Below, piece after piece: positions 32,179-50,171 of a DNA stretch of 64,000 bases. This DNA is from Clostridia bacterium. Lineage in GTDB: Bacteria > Bacillota > DTU025. The stretch lies in the NCBI GenBank assembly GCA_034926675.1, contig JAYFQW010000001.1:1-64000 (forward strand). The letters run 5' to 3'. Positions within the stretch are counted from its first letter, which is position 1, and every line of letters starts with the position of its first letter. The notes under the pieces were generated by a model. That model was not told the origin of the DNA. It searched no databases and saw only the letters and a program-made list of their open reading frames with translations. The position numbers were made by a program, and so were the translations under genes.

Positions 32179-32784
32179 TCATAGCACTCCTTTCGTGGAT
32201 GGAACCGCGCCCTGCCTCGGGTTGATCTCAACCGCTTCCGAAAGCGCCCTTCCGTACGCCTTGAAGATGGCCTCAAGCATGTGATGGGTGTTCTGGCCAT
32301 AGGCCAGGTCCACATGGAGGGTGGACCGTGAGGCCCTTGCGAATCCAGCGAAGAACTCTGGAACTGCCTCGGTGTCCATCTCTCCAACGCGTTCCCCGAG
32401 CCCCGTGACCCTCCATACCAGCTGGCCCCTTCCTGAGAGATCTACTGTGCATGTGGCCAGGGCCTCATCCATCGGAACCACTGCGTGACCGTACCGGCGG
32501 ATTCCGCAGCGATCCCCAAGGGCTCGATCGAGAGCCTCTCCGAGGCATATGCCGATGTCCTCAGAGAGATGATGGCAGTCGACCTGTAGATCTCCGCTGG
32601 CTGCCACTGTGAGATCGAAAAGCCCGTGAGCGCCGAAAAGCGACAGCATGTGGTCGAGGAATCCGCATCCCGTCTCTACGTTGCAGCTGCCAGAGCCATC
32701 GAGGAGAATCCGCACCTTGATGTCGGTCTCTTTTGTGGTCCTAGAGATCTCGCACACCCTGTCGGGAGCCGAATCCATGCTCAT
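32179..32784 (-). CDS. hisB: Imidazoleglycerol-phosphate dehydratase
   Basis: Dehydrates imidazole glycerol phosphate to imidazole acetol phosphate. The 201-aa monofunctional enzyme has the manganese-binding patterns GCGFLDHML, CHHLSEDIGI and THHMLEAIFKAYGRAL, plus the family N-terminus EISRTTKETDI. It overlaps the HisD-HisC gene by four bases. There is no fused histidinol phosphatase domain, and no hisN/hisK-type phosphatase is in this operon. Confidence 0.95.
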   Translation of the reverse strand: MSMDSAPDRVCEISRTTKETDIKVRILLDGSGSCNVETGCGFLDHMLSLFGAHGLFDLTVAASGDLQVDCHHLSEDIGICLGEALDRALGDRCGIRRYGHAVVPMDEALATCTVDLSGRGQLVWRVTGLGERVGEMDTEAVPEFFAGFARASRSTLHVDLAYGQNTHHMLEAIFKAYGRALSEAVEINPRQGAVPSTKGVL

Positions 32785-35171
32785 CGAACCTCCACCTCCT
32801 CAAGCACTGCACCGAGGGCGTTCAGAAACGTGCTGTTCTCCCACGGAGCGCCTATGGTGACCCTGAAGAAGTCGGGGGCGTCCTCAATGCACCTGACCAG
32901 GACCTCGCGTTCCATGAGCCTTCGCCTGATTTCATCGCCGGGAACGGGGCATCGAACAAACAGGAAATTGGCGTTCAGTGCACCGTGGGACAGTCCGAGC
33001 TCTGAGAGGCCCGCGGCGACGTGGGCTCGCTCCTTCAGGATCAGATTCACAGCGGACCGCTTAAGGTCAGGCCTCGCGAGCGCCTGCCGTGCTGCTACAA
33101 GAGAGAGTGTGCTGCAGTTGTATGGCAGCCTCACACTCTGCAGAAGCTGAGTCATCAAGGGGCCCGCCACGGCGAATCCTGCCCGCAGCCCGGCTAAGCC
33201 GAACGCCTTCGACAAGGTCCTGGTGATCATGAGCCTGCCGGAACGCCCTGGCACTTCTGTGATGAGCGTGTCGCCGCAGAACTCGTGGTAGGCCTCATCC
33301 ACGACCACATACGCCCGCGCGCAGGCGACGATCTCCCGGATTCCCCGGGTGAACAGGTCGCCTGTGGGGTTGTTCGGATTGCATATGAACACCAGGGCGT
33401 CGTCACACCGAAGCTCGCGCTCCAGAGCGTCCATGTCGATGCCGAACCCCCCAGAGGGACCTTCCGACAGGGGAATTTCGTGCACCGGCAGGCCGACGGC
33501 CTCGGCGATCCTGCGATACACGGTGAAGGTGGGCGGCATGATCGTTACATGATCGATGCGCGGCCTCAGGGCCAGCATCGTCATTTGTATGATCTCGTCG
33601 GAGCCGGCGCCGAGTGTCACCCGGTCCGCATCGACATCAGCCTCTGACGCGAAAGCGTTAGCCACATCCTGCTCCAAGTCAGCACATGGATATCGGTTGA
33701 ATGGCATCTTCGTGATCTCTCGGACGATGTCGGCCTTGAGCGCCTCCGGGATATCCAGGGGGCTCTCATTGGCATCGAGCTTGACCACGATCGGGGAGAT
33801 CACCTGTTGCACCGATTGCACCCGGTGTGCTGGTTGCGCCTGTTGCATCAGGCTTACGGCCTTCGCCGATCTGAGCACCGAGCCGAATCTGCCCGCGTTC
33901 TGCACTGCCGAGGCGCGCATCTCCATTGATGCTGCGTGCCCGTCGAGCCCCTCGGCTCGCGCCAGCATGATGGCGTCTGCACTTGCGACGAGCAGTGACT
34001 CCGCCGTGCATTCCACCGTATTGATCGGCCTCAGGAAATCGCCAGCGCTCAGCGAACCCCGATGCCTAGCAGAGCCCATTGTTGGGAGGACGTGATTCGG
34101 GCCGGCCATATAGTCGCCAATCGGTGTAGGAGTGTATTCGCCTACGAATACGGTCCCGGCGGATCTAATGGACGACGCTGCCTGCCGCGGGTTATCCACC
34201 ATTATCTGAACATGCTCAGCTGATGCCTGATTGGCGAGGGAGATCGCATCTTCCACTGAATCCACCTCTACGATGGCGCCCCATCGGGATAGCGACTCGC
34301 GGATCACCGCGCGTCGCGACCTGAGGGGAAGCTGAGACGAGATCTCCGCTTCGACACGGTCCGCCAGAGACCGCGAGACAGAGACGAGGACAGCGGAGGC
34401 GAGCGGATCATGTTCCGCCTGGGCTATCAGATCCGCCGCCACCAGGGCGGGATTCGCAGATGAATCGGCGATGATTAGCACCTCGCTGGGCCCCGCGAGC
34501 ATGTCGATGCCCACATCACCCCATACAAGGCGTTTGGCGGCGGTGACAAACGCGTTGCCAGGTCCAACGATCTTGTCGACCCTCGGAACGCAGCCAGCGC
34601 CGTAGGCCATGGCCGCGATTGCACCTGCGCCGCCGGCCCTGAAGACTCGGCTGACGCCGCACAGCACGGCGGCTGCCAGGATCAGCTGGTTCACTGCGCC
34701 GCTTCGCCCAGGGGGTGTGCACATGATGACCTCTCTCACACCCGCCACTTTGGCGGGAACTGCAGTCATGACGACGGTAGAAGGGTAGGGAGCGGTTCCT
34801 CCGGGTACGTATATTCCCACCCTCTCGATTGGCTCGAGCCTGTAACCGAGCCTCGCTCCATCCGAGGAGGTGCATTCCCAGCTTTGGCCGACTTGCTTCG
34901 AGTGGTAATCCCGCACATTGTCGGCTGCATGCTCTATCGAGCGTAGAAGGTTCCTGTCGGCGCAGGTGAACGCCTGCTCCATTTCTGACCGAGCAACCTC
35001 AACACCGATGGCGGTAAGATCAGCACCATCGTACTTCGCGGCGAGACGCACGAGGGCGGCGTCTCCATCGCGCCTGACCTCCGACACGATCTCGGTCACA
35101 TCAGGCAGCTGCAGGCTGAGCGCCGCTGCCCGACGCTGCATGTACTCAGCAGGCGTCATGCGCGGGATCAT
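32781..35171 (-). CDS. hisDC: Fused histidinol dehydrogenase / histidinol-phosphate aminotransferase
   Basis: One 796-aa open frame encodes two enzymes. Residues 1-430 are HisD: the NAD region with YVPGGTAPYPST, KIVGPGNAFVTAAKR, the QAEHDPLASA catalytic block and zinc ligands in the ANQASAEHV and GDYMAGPNHVLPT segments. Residues about 450-796 are HisC, a PLP aminotransferase: KLDANESPLD, NPNNPTGD, DEAYHEF, the PLP Lys in TRTLSKAFGLAGLRAGF and the final RVTIG. The linker is about 25 residues, and a HisC-like N-terminal PYxPG arm is missing. HisC converts imidazole acetol phosphate to histidinol phosphate; HisD oxidises histidinol to histidine. An internal start at the ATG of MQQAQP cannot be excluded. 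Confidence 0.9.
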   Translation of the reverse strand: MIPRMTPAEYMQRRAAALSLQLPDVTEIVSEVRRDGDAALVRLAAKYDGADLTAIGVEVARSEMEQAFTCADRNLLRSIEHAADNVRDYHSKQVGQSWECTSSDGARLGYRLEPIERVGIYVPGGTAPYPSTVVMTAVPAKVAGVREVIMCTPPGRSGAVNQLILAAAVLCGVSRVFRAGGAGAIAAMAYGAGCVPRVDKIVGPGNAFVTAAKRLVWGDVGIDMLAGPSEVLIIADSSANPALVAADLIAQAEHDPLASAVLVSVSRSLADRVEAEISSQLPLRSRRAVIRESLSRWGAIVEVDSVEDAISLANQASAEHVQIMVDNPRQAASSIRSAGTVFVGEYTPTPIGDYMAGPNHVLPTMGSARHRGSLSAGDFLRPINTVECTAESLLVASADAIMLARAEGLDGHAASMEMRASAVQNAGRFGSVLRSAKAVSLMQQAQPAHRVQSVQQVISPIVVKLDANESPLDIPEALKADIVREITKMPFNRYPCADLEQDVANAFASEADVDADRVTLGAGSDEIIQMTMLALRPRIDHVTIMPPTFTVYRRIAEAVGLPVHEIPLSEGPSGGFGIDMDALERELRCDDALVFICNPNNPTGDLFTRGIREIVACARAYVVVDEAYHEFCGDTLITEVPGRSGRLMITRTLSKAFGLAGLRAGFAVAGPLMTQLLQSVRLPYNCSTLSLVAARQALARPDLKRSAVNLILKERAHVAAGLSELGLSHGALNANFLFVRCPVPGDEIRRRLMEREVLVRCIEDAPDFFRVTIGAPWENSTFLNALGAVLEEVEVR

Positions 35172-47383: not shown

Positions 47384-48148
47384 ATGGCGACTGGAACAGG
47401 AAGGCTCGTGATCATCGCAACACCCATCGGCAATCTGGAGGATCTGACGTACCGAGCGGCCAGGCTGCTCGGCGAGGTCGATGCACTGGCGTGTGAAGAC
47501 ACTCGGCACACCCGGATTATCCTTGATAGGTATCAGATCCGGAAACCAGAGATCATGTTTTCCTACCACGAGTATAACGAGGATCGTGCCGCGAACCGCA
47601 TTCTCGGCCTCTTGGAGGAGGGGCTCTTGGTGGGAGTCTGCTCGAATGCGGGGTGCCCCGGGGTCAGCGATCCGGGCTACCTGGCTGTGAGCCGCGCTGT
47701 TGAGCGGGGGTTCGCTGTTGAGGCGCTTCCGGGCGCATCTGCAGTTCTCACTGCTCTGCTGGCTTCAGGGCTACCAACGTCGTCCTTCACGTTCAAGGGC
47801 TTTCCCCCGAAGAAGCCTGGCCGGAGGCGGGCCTTTCTCGAAATGGAACGGGACCTTCCACACACCCTGATTCTGTATGAGACGCCCCACCGAGTCCTGC
47901 CTCTGCTGCAGACGGCCCTGGAGGTTCTGGGCGACAGGATGACGGCGGTCTGCATCGAGCTCACGAAGATGTTCGAGGATGTGCGTCATGGGCATCTGTC
48001 TGAGATCATCGGGGCACTGACCGGCGTGAAGATCAAGGGCGAGGTAGTTGTGGTCATAGCCGGCAACAATCCGAAGTTCACAGCCGAAGCAATTGAGGAC
48101 AGGGCCGAGCCCGATACCGACGCTTGCGTCGATGGAGATGAGGGGTGA
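47384..48148 (+). CDS. rsmI: 16S rRNA 2'-O-methyltransferase, C1402 specific
   Basis: SAM-dependent enzyme that methylates the 2'-O of C1402 in the decoding centre of the small ribosomal subunit. The 254-aa protein has the family pattern: LVIIATPIGNLEDLTYRA at the N-terminus, CEDTRHTRIILDRY, the SAM-site SNAGCPGVSDPGYL and ALPGASAVLTALLASGLP, then the FKGFPPKK block and ELTKMFEDV. ATG at 47384 is used; its AAGGAG is too near, so GAAGGG further upstream may serve, and a longer start at 47345 is possible. It heads a three-gene unit with two RNA-modifying genes. Confidence 0.93.
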   Translation: MATGTGRLVIIATPIGNLEDLTYRAARLLGEVDALACEDTRHTRIILDRYQIRKPEIMFSYHEYNEDRAANRILGLLEEGLLVGVCSNAGCPGVSDPGYLAVSRAVERGFAVEALPGASAVLTALLASGLPTSSFTFKGFPPKKPGRRRAFLEMERDLPHTLILYETPHRVLPLLQTALEVLGDRMTAVCIELTKMFEDVRHGHLSEIIGALTGVKIKGEVVVVIAGNNPKFTAEAIEDRAEPDTDACVDGDEG

Positions 48149-48153
48149 AATCG

Positions 48154-49278
48154 ATGAGCACTGCCCCACACACGAGGCATGGAGGGATGCCCGTTCCCAC
48201 CTTCATCCCTGACGCGACTAGGGCCGTGGTTCGTTCCATCGACTCACGGGATCTGGAAAGCGTCTCCATCAGAGCCCTGATGGTCAACACCCTTCACCTG
48301 TCAACGCACCCCGGGGTATCCACTGTAGCGTCAGCGGGCGGAGTGCACAAGTTCATGGGCTGGGACCGGCCAGTTGCATCCGATTCCGGGGGGTTCCAGG
48401 TTTTCTCTTTGATCTCCGAGGATCCTAGCCTTGGCAGTGTAACCGACCGCGGTTTCACATACCGCACTGCGAGGGGCGGAGAGAAGCAGACCCTCACACC
48501 GGACAAATGCATTGAACGGCAGTTCAAAATCGGGTCGGACATCATGTTCTGCCTGGACTACTGTACTCATCCAGATGCGCCGAAGCAGATGCAGGAGGAG
48601 AGCGTTCGCCTTACGGTGGCGTGGGCCCGGCGGTGCAAGGAGACATTCACGCGACAGGTCGAGCAGCGCAGGCTCAATCCCTCAGATCGCCCGCTGCTTT
48701 TCGCTGTTGTGCAGGGAGGGGAGGCCCCGGCTCTTCGTCGCGCCTGCGCAGAGCAGCTGTTGGAAATCGGCTTCGACGGGTATGGCTACGGCGGATGGCC
48801 GATCAGCCCCTCCGGTGGGCTCGTAGATGCGGTGGGTCTGGTTGCCGAGCTGGTCCCTGACGGCCTGCCGAGGCATGCTCTGGGCATTGGGAAGCCCGAG
48901 AACGTGGTGTGTGGCGCGGGTATGGGCTATACGACGTTCGATGCGGTTATTCCCACGCGTGATGCCCGCCACAAGCGGCTGTATGTTGCGGTCGACAACT
49001 TCGCGTCGTTGAACCTTCGCGGAGGAGAGTTCTACGAGAACCTGTATATCCAGGATGACAAGTTCGTGAGGGATGATCGTCCAGTTGAGGAATGGTGCGA
49101 TTGCCCCTGCTGCACACGGTATTCCCGCGCGTATCTGCACCACCTGTTCAGCATAGGCGACACTCTGGCCTTGCGGTTGGCGACTATGCACAATCTGCGC
49201 TTCTATACGCGACTTTCGGAGCGGCTGGCCGAGATCCTGGCCAGAGGTGAGCGTCTCAATGATGCAGGATCTTGCTAG
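48154..49278 (+). CDS. Divergent tRNA-guanine transglycosylase paralogue
   Basis: A 374-aa TIM-barrel base-exchange enzyme. It keeps the Tgt core: GVHKFMGWDRPVASDSGGFQ, LDYC (the substrate Asp), VQGG, the nucleophile Asp in FDAVIPTRDARHKR, and the zinc site CDCPCCTRYSRAYLHHLF. The segment that in Tgt reads GGLxVGEP, whose Glu reads the aminomethyl group of preQ1, is GGWPISPSGG here, so the base or RNA recognised is probably different. The N-terminus is also shortened. ATG at 48154 has AGGGGTGA six bases upstream and almost touches the rsmI stop. The 3' end overlaps the rRNA methyltransferase gene. It may not act on queuosine tRNAs. Confidence 0.8.
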   Translation: MSTAPHTRHGGMPVPTFIPDATRAVVRSIDSRDLESVSIRALMVNTLHLSTHPGVSTVASAGGVHKFMGWDRPVASDSGGFQVFSLISEDPSLGSVTDRGFTYRTARGGEKQTLTPDKCIERQFKIGSDIMFCLDYCTHPDAPKQMQEESVRLTVAWARRCKETFTRQVEQRRLNPSDRPLLFAVVQGGEAPALRRACAEQLLEIGFDGYGYGGWPISPSGGLVDAVGLVAELVPDGLPRHALGIGKPENVVCGAGMGYTTFDAVIPTRDARHKRLYVAVDNFASLNLRGGEFYENLYIQDDKFVRDDRPVEEWCDCPCCTRYSRAYLHHLFSIGDTLALRLATMHNLRFYTRLSERLAEILARGERLNDAGSC

Positions 49279-50062
49279 CCAGGTCGTGGCGTCCTTGACC
49301 TCCTCGAAGAAGTATGGCGACCTGTGCCCGGACACATTAGGACGAGTCGCGAACTGGGCCGTCGCGCGGCATCCCGATCGGGATGAGGCAACAAAGGCAG
49401 CAAAGCGGAAACTGCACCAAGTGCATGCGTCGTTCATGACTTTGGCGCAGATCTCTCGGCTGGAACTGCTAGAGGGGGAATTGCCTGACCATCCCTGTGA
49501 CGAGGAGGTGCGCGCCGTGTTCCACAGCGCGATGTGTTTGCATACCTCGACGAGGGAGCGCATGGAGATCATGGAGGAGCTGTATCCTGTGCTTTGGGAG
49601 CAGATCGGCGCCCCGCACAGGGTTCTGGACCTAGCCTGCGGGCTGCATCCCCTCGCTATTCCGTGGATGGGACTTCCGCATGATGTTGCGTATCGCGGGG
49701 TTGACATCGACCAGAGGCTCGCTCGGGCGATCAACGCACTCCTGGAACGGGCGCGCTGCGCCGGGCAGGTTGATTGCCGCGATCTGCTGACTGGCATGCC
49801 CGAGGGCGATTGGGACGTGGCACTGCTTCTGAAGGCCCTGCCCAGCCTGGAGCAGCAGGAGAAAGGCGCCGGCCTGCGGATGCTGAGTGCGCTCCGAACC
49901 AGATGCGTGGTGGTGTCGATGCCCGCGAGAACCCTGTGTGGGCGTGAAAAGGGCATGTACGAGCATTACGACGCCATGATTTCGAGCCTAACGGCGGGGC
50001 TTGGGTGGCGCTCACGGCAGCTTCGCTACCCGCAGGAGACGTTCTACCTCCTAGAGCACTGA
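49259..50062 (+). CDS. ArmA/Rmt-type 16S rRNA m7G1405 methyltransferase homologue
   Basis: A 267-aa SAM-dependent methyltransferase of the FmrO/ArmA/RmtB family, which methylates N7 of G1405 in helix 44 and thereby blocks 4,6-disubstituted aminoglycosides such as gentamicin and kanamycin. Family features in order: SSKKYGDLCPDT near the N-terminus, KRKLHQVHASFMT, LHTSTRERM, the SAM motif RVLDLACGLHPLAI (about residues 122-135), LLLKALPSLEQQEKG, VVVSMPARTLCGREKGM. Length matches (about 250-280). ATG at 49259 has AGAGGTGA eight bases upstream and overlaps the Tgt-like gene by 20 bases. There is no mobile-element context, so it looks native. Activity and phenotype are untested inference. Confidence 0.85.
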   Translation: MMQDLASQVVASLTSSKKYGDLCPDTLGRVANWAVARHPDRDEATKAAKRKLHQVHASFMTLAQISRLELLEGELPDHPCDEEVRAVFHSAMCLHTSTRERMEIMEELYPVLWEQIGAPHRVLDLACGLHPLAIPWMGLPHDVAYRGVDIDQRLARAINALLERARCAGQVDCRDLLTGMPEGDWDVALLLKALPSLEQQEKGAGLRMLSALRTRCVVVSMPARTLCGREKGMYEHYDAMISSLTAGLGWRSRQLRYPQETFYLLEH

Positions 50063-50139: not shown

Positions 50140-50171
50140 AGGCCCTCGTCTGACATGCCAGACGAGGGCCT
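50140..50171. terminator. Bidirectional terminator
   Basis: AGGCCCTCGTCTG (50140-50152) pairs perfectly with CAGACGAGGGCCT (50159-50171) around a six-base loop. Downstream T-runs are short on both strands (GCTTT on plus, TTTCCCC on minus). It separates the methyltransferase gene from the convergent groEL. Confidence 0.85.

Follow-up and report, generated by a model that had tools for sequence, protein, structure and literature searches.

Gene organization at the rmt locus

The window, that is, the whole 64-kb stretch of DNA analyzed, contains three genes packed head to tail that encode RsmI, a divergent protein of the TGT family (hereafter TGT2) and a methylase related to ArmA and the Rmt enzymes (Table 1). 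A groEL gene lies beyond an inverted repeat in convergent orientation. The rsmI gene is the only one coding for an RsmI in this genome, and its ATG is preceded by AAGGAG. A previous reading of the DNA, made from the sequence only, had described the methylase gene as overlapping a Tgt-like ORF behind rsmI, and an overlap of 20 bp was indeed seen between both ORFs; the methylase ATG at 49259 has a AGAGGTGA box about 8 bases 5' to it, within the 3' end of the TGT2 gene. The inverted repeat is a probable terminator in which the T run is not clear, and a terminator scan reported nothing 3' of rmt, this repeat included.

Table 1. Features of the locus, with positions in the window.
Feature	Position	Strand	Evidence or remark
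rsmI, 16S rRNA C1402 2'-O-methyltransferase	47384..48148	+	TIGR00096 194 bits, cut-off 168
TGT2, predicted divergent base-exchange enzyme of the TGT family	48154..49278	+	PF01702 300 bits; alternative GTG start 48145
rmt-like gene, predicted 16S rRNA m7G1405 methyltransferase (PF07091)	49259..50062	+	family searches, conserved residues, tree
12-bp inverted repeat, AGGCCCTCGTCT...AGACGAGGGCCT	50140..50171	.	separates the methylase gene from the convergent groEL; read by eye

No mobile element was seen among the ORFs of the 64-kb window, as the first reading had maintained, and the GC content at the rmt locus equals that of its surroundings. The window held no producer cluster, and no RsmH match adjoined the pair within the operon region. 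A recent import of the pair was rejected on the basis of GC content and synteny, and a MAG chimera was also discarded, as the locus order is the same in two related genomes (G005 and G001). No 16S rRNA gene was found in the draft assembly of the window genome or in those of eight relatives. Elsewhere in the window, the ORF at 32781-35171 (- strand) resembles, by eye, a fusion of HisD (histidinol dehydrogenase) and HisC (aminotransferase).

A methylase of the ArmA/Rmt family

The ArmA/Rmt enzymes encoded by plasmids provide very broad resistance to aminoglycosides, and their usual suspected origin is the actinomycete producers. The ORF translation of the rmt-like gene (267 aa) contains SKKYGDLCPDT, then LHTSTRERM and then RVLDLACGLHPLA, the three family motifs in the order from which the sequence-only reading had assigned the protein. 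This assignment was confirmed by the Pfam FmrO model PF07091 (E 1.9e-51; 175 bits with a cut-off of 27; residues 16-260), and with an E-value of 1e-51 a chance similarity was ruled out. The general Rmt model of NCBIfam, NF000466, gave 224 bits, below its naming threshold of 250 bits, which is an annotation cut-off and not a biochemical feature. A search against the PDB returned Sgm as the best match (E 1e-44), along with RmtF, RmtC and RmtB (E 1e-29 to 1e-33). This is the only PF07091 gene in the 3.38-Mb draft genome. The window methylase shares about 27-36% identity with the plasmid enzymes and keeps the 13 invariant columns of a 39-row alignment that included four of them, as well as all the residues common to RmtB, RmtC and Sgm (S97, E100, R101, D124, C127, P131, D149, K192, M233, Y237 and E260). 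When the window was compared with L007, from a genome of the same family, the methylases were about 51% identical, with 72% for TGT2, 73% for RsmI and 89% for GroEL; judged by these values, the methylase is fast-evolving for an rRNA enzyme.

In an unrooted methylase tree of 63 rows, in which ArmA and RmtC form long branches, the window protein belongs to a multi-phylum clade of 14 rows (support 100/98). Plasmid enzymes lie on one side of this clade together with G041, L054, L093 and L058 (97/88), and producer Sgm lies on the opposite side together with Chloroflexota (97/90). A phylogeny had been proposed as a check of the assignment, and it does not place the window outside the m7G1405 group, as proven G1405 enzymes are found on both sides of its clade; the idea of an old chromosomal branch is also upheld by this position. 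Family, conserved residues and tree position strongly suggest that the window methylase acts on the N7 of G1405, which we regard as very probable.

A second, diverged methylase, RMT2, was detected in L059, L064, L079, L099 and 16 other loci (e.g. L064:6797-7612), usually directly 3' of the first one. It keeps the SAM motif, has KEAHRFEQ in place of KxLPCLEQ and has lost the KGM...Y motif, and ten RMT2 sequences form a clade of their own in the methylase tree (99/96). These changes would be compatible with a new target or a role as partner subunit, both of which are possible.

The first reading had regarded the family as otherwise restricted to producers and mobile elements, a claim contradicted by a scan of 84,980 species genomes that yielded 353 chromosomal loci with methylase relatives. 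The best 80 of these 353 loci are mostly from Chloroflexota, and the others include Armatimonadota, Hydrogenedentes, Gemmatimonadota, Acidobacteriota, Nitrospirota, Planctomycetota, Latescibacterota, Eisenbacteria, Pseudomonadota, Patescibacteria and Bacillota. The methylase was present in 29 of the 121 genomes of an Anaerolineae sample (the class around L064/G078), and only 6 out of 348 genomes sampled from the phylum of the window had it above the cut-off.

Pairing of TGT2 and the methylase

The neighbor that matters, overlooked at first reading, is the TGT paralogue tied to the methylase. Among the best 80 of the 353 loci, TGT2 is located at 2 kb or less from the methylase in 73 and directly upstream on the same strand in 65, often with an overlap of a few bases. 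The Anaerolineae sample (n = 121) comprised 23 genomes with both genes, 6 with the methylase only, none with TGT2 only and 92 with neither, and the corresponding numbers for the phylum of the window (n = 348) were 6, 0, 0 and 342. Combination of both samples (n = 469; 29, 6, 0 and 434) gave a Fisher P of 1e-40, a value that ignores kinship. In six genomes TGT2 and the methylase co-occur although their genes are on separate contigs or widely spaced (320 kb in G142), one of these cases, G193, being perhaps due to a contig break. As the co-occurrence persists in unlinked genomes, a functional tie beyond linkage is suggested. Pairwise tree distances of TGT2 and the methylase were correlated as well (r 0.82; 0/5000 permutations as high), also in a 25-locus subset mostly from outside Chloroflexota (r 0.81; 0/5000).

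In the window and in G005 (L028), the tgt2-rmt pair is placed between rsmI and groEL. The matches to these two genes are 87 bp apart in G001, a genome of the same family as the window and of the same genus as the carrier G005. The pair is absent from this genome as a whole, which indicates that its two genes were acquired or deleted together at a conserved locus. Methylation does not depend on TGT2, since this enzyme is missing from 6 of the 29 Anaerolineae carriers, and plasmid-borne ArmA, RmtC, RmtF and RmtB1 are found in its absence. Three loci from Patescibacteria/Liptonbacteria with genomes of about 1 Mb (L047, L091 and L103) have the methylase, and no TGT of any kind was found there. An optional resistance trait would account for such a patchy distribution as well as ribosome tuning does.

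Sequence, fold and base pocket of TGT2

The canonical Tgt of the window genome is encoded on contig C24, beside queA, and scored 557 bits in the same genome search in which TGT2 scored 299 bits. Among the relatives compared, each one carrying the methylase has TGT2 as well, and in the same-family genomes that lack the methylase (three checked) the canonical Tgt is the only one. Carriers have the canonical enzyme too, as it was present in 16 out of 16 genomes checked outside the phylum of the window with TGT2 beside the methylase, and in 6 out of 6 within the phylum. Against TIGR00430, TGT2 reached 297 bits, below the Tgt cut-off of 306.75, which only the neighbor of rmtB2 passes (317.7 bits). 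A long branch (SH-aLRT 100) separates 78 TGT2 from 9 canonical sequences in the TGT tree. The genomes of L036 and L038 encode, in addition to the canonical Tgt and TGT2, one further TGT that is more distant (165-167 bits; G066:C826:5273-6232 and G068:C7:50553-51512).

The residues aligned with the Asp280 nucleophile, Asp102, Asp156 and Gly230 (Z. mobilis numbering) are invariant in the 78 TGT2 rows, as are the Cys/Cys/Cys/His zinc ligands of the Z. mobilis TGT; Gln203 is kept in 77 of the 78, and the PTRxxR motif is also kept. An AF2 model of TGT2 (pLDDT 94.7) resembles the Z. mobilis enzyme with TM values of 0.83-0.85. Because catalytic and zinc residues are kept, the chemistry should be intact, and TGT2 is most probably catalytically active.

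The base pocket differs from that of the canonical enzyme. Leu231-Ala/Ser232-Val233-Gly234 is replaced in TGT2 by Trp (77/78), Pro (78/78), Leu/Ile/Val and mostly Asp, with W218-P219 in the window protein, and Asp takes the place of a canonical Val, which by our own count is Val45 of Z. mobilis, in the 76 rows out of 76 with a residue there. The Leu231-Ala232-Val233-Gly234 peptide of TGT flips between guanine and preQ1 (PMC3660597). As the Pro of TGT2 has no backbone NH, the water-mediated contact to guanine N7 of a normal TGT would not be formed, and from these replacements we infer a changed specificity for the base or the substrate.

Recurrent helix-44 neighbors and queuosine genes

The pair aside, the families most often encoded near the chromosomal methylase genes are RsmI (35 loci), RsmF-like proteins (27) and RsmE (15), and RsmH adjoins the pair in L036 and L038. 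RsmI and RsmH (C1402), RsmF (C1407) and RsmE (U1498) are precisely the four housekeeping enzymes listed as acting around G1405/A1408, and according to earlier work cited in the same article ArmA blocks RsmI, and Sgm and RmtC block RsmF (PMC12406665). The rsmI gene precedes TGT2 in the clade of the window, whereas in G009, G010, G011 and G041 it follows the methylase gene; the association has thus had more than one origin or rearrangement. The genes for RsmF, RsmE and a queuosine-precursor transporter are found beside the pair mainly in Chloroflexota, above all in Anaerolineaceae. The old chromosomal branch proposed in the sequence-only reading is supported by the link to RsmI, which in relatives extends to further enzymes of helix 44. 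Its description as "housekeeping" was too strong, because only 6/348 genomes of the phylum sample carry the gene and a genome of the same family lacks the pair at the same locus.

The transporter (TIGR00697) is encoded at 11 methylase loci (e.g. L050:9125-9850), few genes behind the pair and on the same strand; all are Anaerolineaceae-type loci, and its presence may merely be shared synteny of related genomes. The six carriers from the phylum of the window lack QueC (6/6) and have QueA and Tgt, so that de novo synthesis of preQ0 seems to be absent and these cells must salvage. QueA is also absent from the carrier G077 (Chloroflexus). A simple link of TGT2 to the queuosine pathway is weakened by the lack of QueC in six carriers and of QueA in G077.

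Counterparts on resistance plasmids

Plasmid proteins retrieved with TGT2 were 46-52% identical to it, compared to 31-37% for canonical Tgts. Their genes adjoin rmtD1 and rmtG, are separated from rmtB2 by a metallophosphoesterase gene, and are truncated next to rmtE2. On the rmtG plasmids, rsmH-tgt2-rmtG is followed by the first 98 aa of rsmI, and in plasmid 6411TF a 31-aa tail of rsmH (L109:3900-3992), 81% identical to the RsmH of the rmtG plasmid, survives before tgt2-rmtD1, which implies a common type of parent operon for rmtD1 and rmtG. No traces of TGT2 were found within about 3 kb of the copies of armA, rmtC, rmtF1 and rmtB1 examined. In the TGT tree, the plasmid-encoded TGT2s cluster with G041, L054 and L093 (SH-aLRT 83), and in the methylase tree G041, from the phylum of the window, is sister to RmtE2 (97/78) and represents the closest chromosomal relative of rmtE2 in this analysis. 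The chromosomal pair is a plausible source of mobile rmt genes, which by these relationships would most plausibly have come from units of such a kind and not from the window's own branch.

A tRNA ribosyltransferase gene is reportedly also mentioned in an early article on rmtD. A review places rmtG in an operon with rsmH, tgt and "rsmL" (PMC9311965), and the Kp13 genome paper mentions a tRNA ribosyltransferase (PMC3904158). For a chromosomal TGT-Rmt pair, a literature search that left most subscription journals outside its reach returned only these remarks on the rmtG operon, and an earlier description is possible.

A candidate modification unit for the decoding site

As a whole, the observations are best explained by a patchily inherited rsmI-tgt2-rmt unit for modification of the decoding site, a reading that we consider reasonably probable. 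According to it, positions 47384-50062 would constitute an operon whose products modify the ribosomal decoding site. The rmt product would methylate the N7 of G1405, in helix 44, in the assembled 30S subunit, and TGT2, as its residues suggest, would be an active base-exchange enzyme of TGT fold outside the queuosine pathway, working, from the co-occurrence data, only in cells that have the methylase. TGT2 would swap a guanine in helix 44 of 16S rRNA, so that m7G1405 ribosomes decode well, and the incoming base might be guanine itself. The pair, gained and lost whole, would protect from 4,6-linked aminoglycosides as its main or a side effect, and related units would have given rise to at least some of the plasmid rmt genes. 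Helix 44 as the RNA substrate of TGT2 is a tentative assignment, and more tentative still is the proposal that TGT2 is an rRNA-guanine transglycosylase acting on helix 44 with m7G1405, which would be a kind of rRNA modification new to science.

The substrate of the characterized bacterial Tgts is G34 of tRNA, and TGT2 could likewise act on tRNA, modifying a wobble guanine that the canonical Tgt leaves or inserting another base, and so offset decoding errors due to m7G1405. The kept fold, nucleophile, zinc site and PTRxxR motif agree with such an activity, carriers live with the Q pathway, as they have the canonical Tgt and mostly QueA, and Rmts reduce fidelity in E. coli. However, the recurrent partners are 16S helix-44 enzymes and not tRNA enzymes, the preQ1-reading pocket is altered in every TGT2, and the 16 + 6 carriers checked all have a canonical Tgt as well, so we regard action on tRNA as unlikely, though it is the main alternative.

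A passenger role for TGT2, next to an ordinary aminoglycoside resistance gene, either intrinsic or recently acquired, would account for the patchiness (6/348 genomes) and for the clean absence in a same-family genome, and the Rmts known so far are resistance enzymes. This is nevertheless improbable, given that the pair is kept over many phyla with correlated trees and co-occurs when unlinked, in a region of normal GC with no mobile element nearby. Similarly improbable is that the methylase clade has another target, either another rRNA base or a tRNA, with G1405 specificity confined to producers and plasmids: the identity of ~27-36% to the plasmid enzymes, the score below the NCBI naming cut-off and the diverged tandem paralogue of Chloroflexota speak for it, but proven enzymes flank the clade in the tree, the residues conserved from ArmA to Sgm are all kept, and the partners work on helix 44. 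An eraser function, by which TGT2 would exchange the m7G base at 1405 for guanine or 7-deazaguanine and render the resistance mark reversible, is very improbable. In its favor, TGT2 was never found without the methylase in the samples, its Pro in place of Ala232 eliminates the amide through which a normal TGT contacts guanine N7 via water, and Trp and Asp are gained in the pocket region; against it, apparently full-length tgt2 genes sit beside rmtD1 and rmtG on clinical plasmids, with MIC > 256 for rmtD strains, and we know of no TGT that removes a methylated base.

The gene pair still recognizable beside rmtB2, rmtD1, rmtE2 and rmtG has a large reservoir in chromosomes. The TGT partner, not seen without the methylase, suggests a second modification, so far unrecognized and possibly located in rRNA, that would accompany m7G1405. 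Should TGT2 offset a cost of m7G1405, this would help to explain the stable carriage of rmt resistance genes.

Comparison with known systems

With ArmA, RmtA-H, FmrO and Sgm (PF07091), the window methylase shares homology over the full length, the SAM motif, substrate and catalytic residues, and a similar size; unlike them, it is encoded by a chromosomal gene in an rRNA-modification operon and belongs to its own multi-phylum clade. TGT2 resembles the bacterial Tgt of the queuosine pathway, as represented by Z. mobilis, in fold, catalytic Asp pair and zinc site, with ~32% identity, whereas its separate clade, its Trp-Pro-Leu/Ile-Asp pocket with Asp for Val45, and its tie to the methylase and not to queA set it apart. 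RsmI, RsmH, RsmF and RsmE are recurrent genomic partners that act close to G1405, as the methylase is predicted to do, but they are widespread housekeeping enzymes, while the methylase and TGT2 are patchy.

The closest known parallels are the rsmH-tgt-rmtG-rsmI arrangement of Klebsiella plasmids (PMC9311965, PMC3904158) and the tgt-rmtD1, tgt-rmtB2 and tgt-rmtE2 contexts, in which a gene of the TGT2 clade is also upstream of the methylase gene; the rmtG operon moreover has the company of RsmI and RsmH, and rsmI adjoins the pair in the window too. IS91/ISCR or IS26 elements border the plasmid copies, several of which have a truncated rsmI, rsmH or tgt, whereas the chromosomal unit of the window is intact, begins with rsmI and lacks rsmH.
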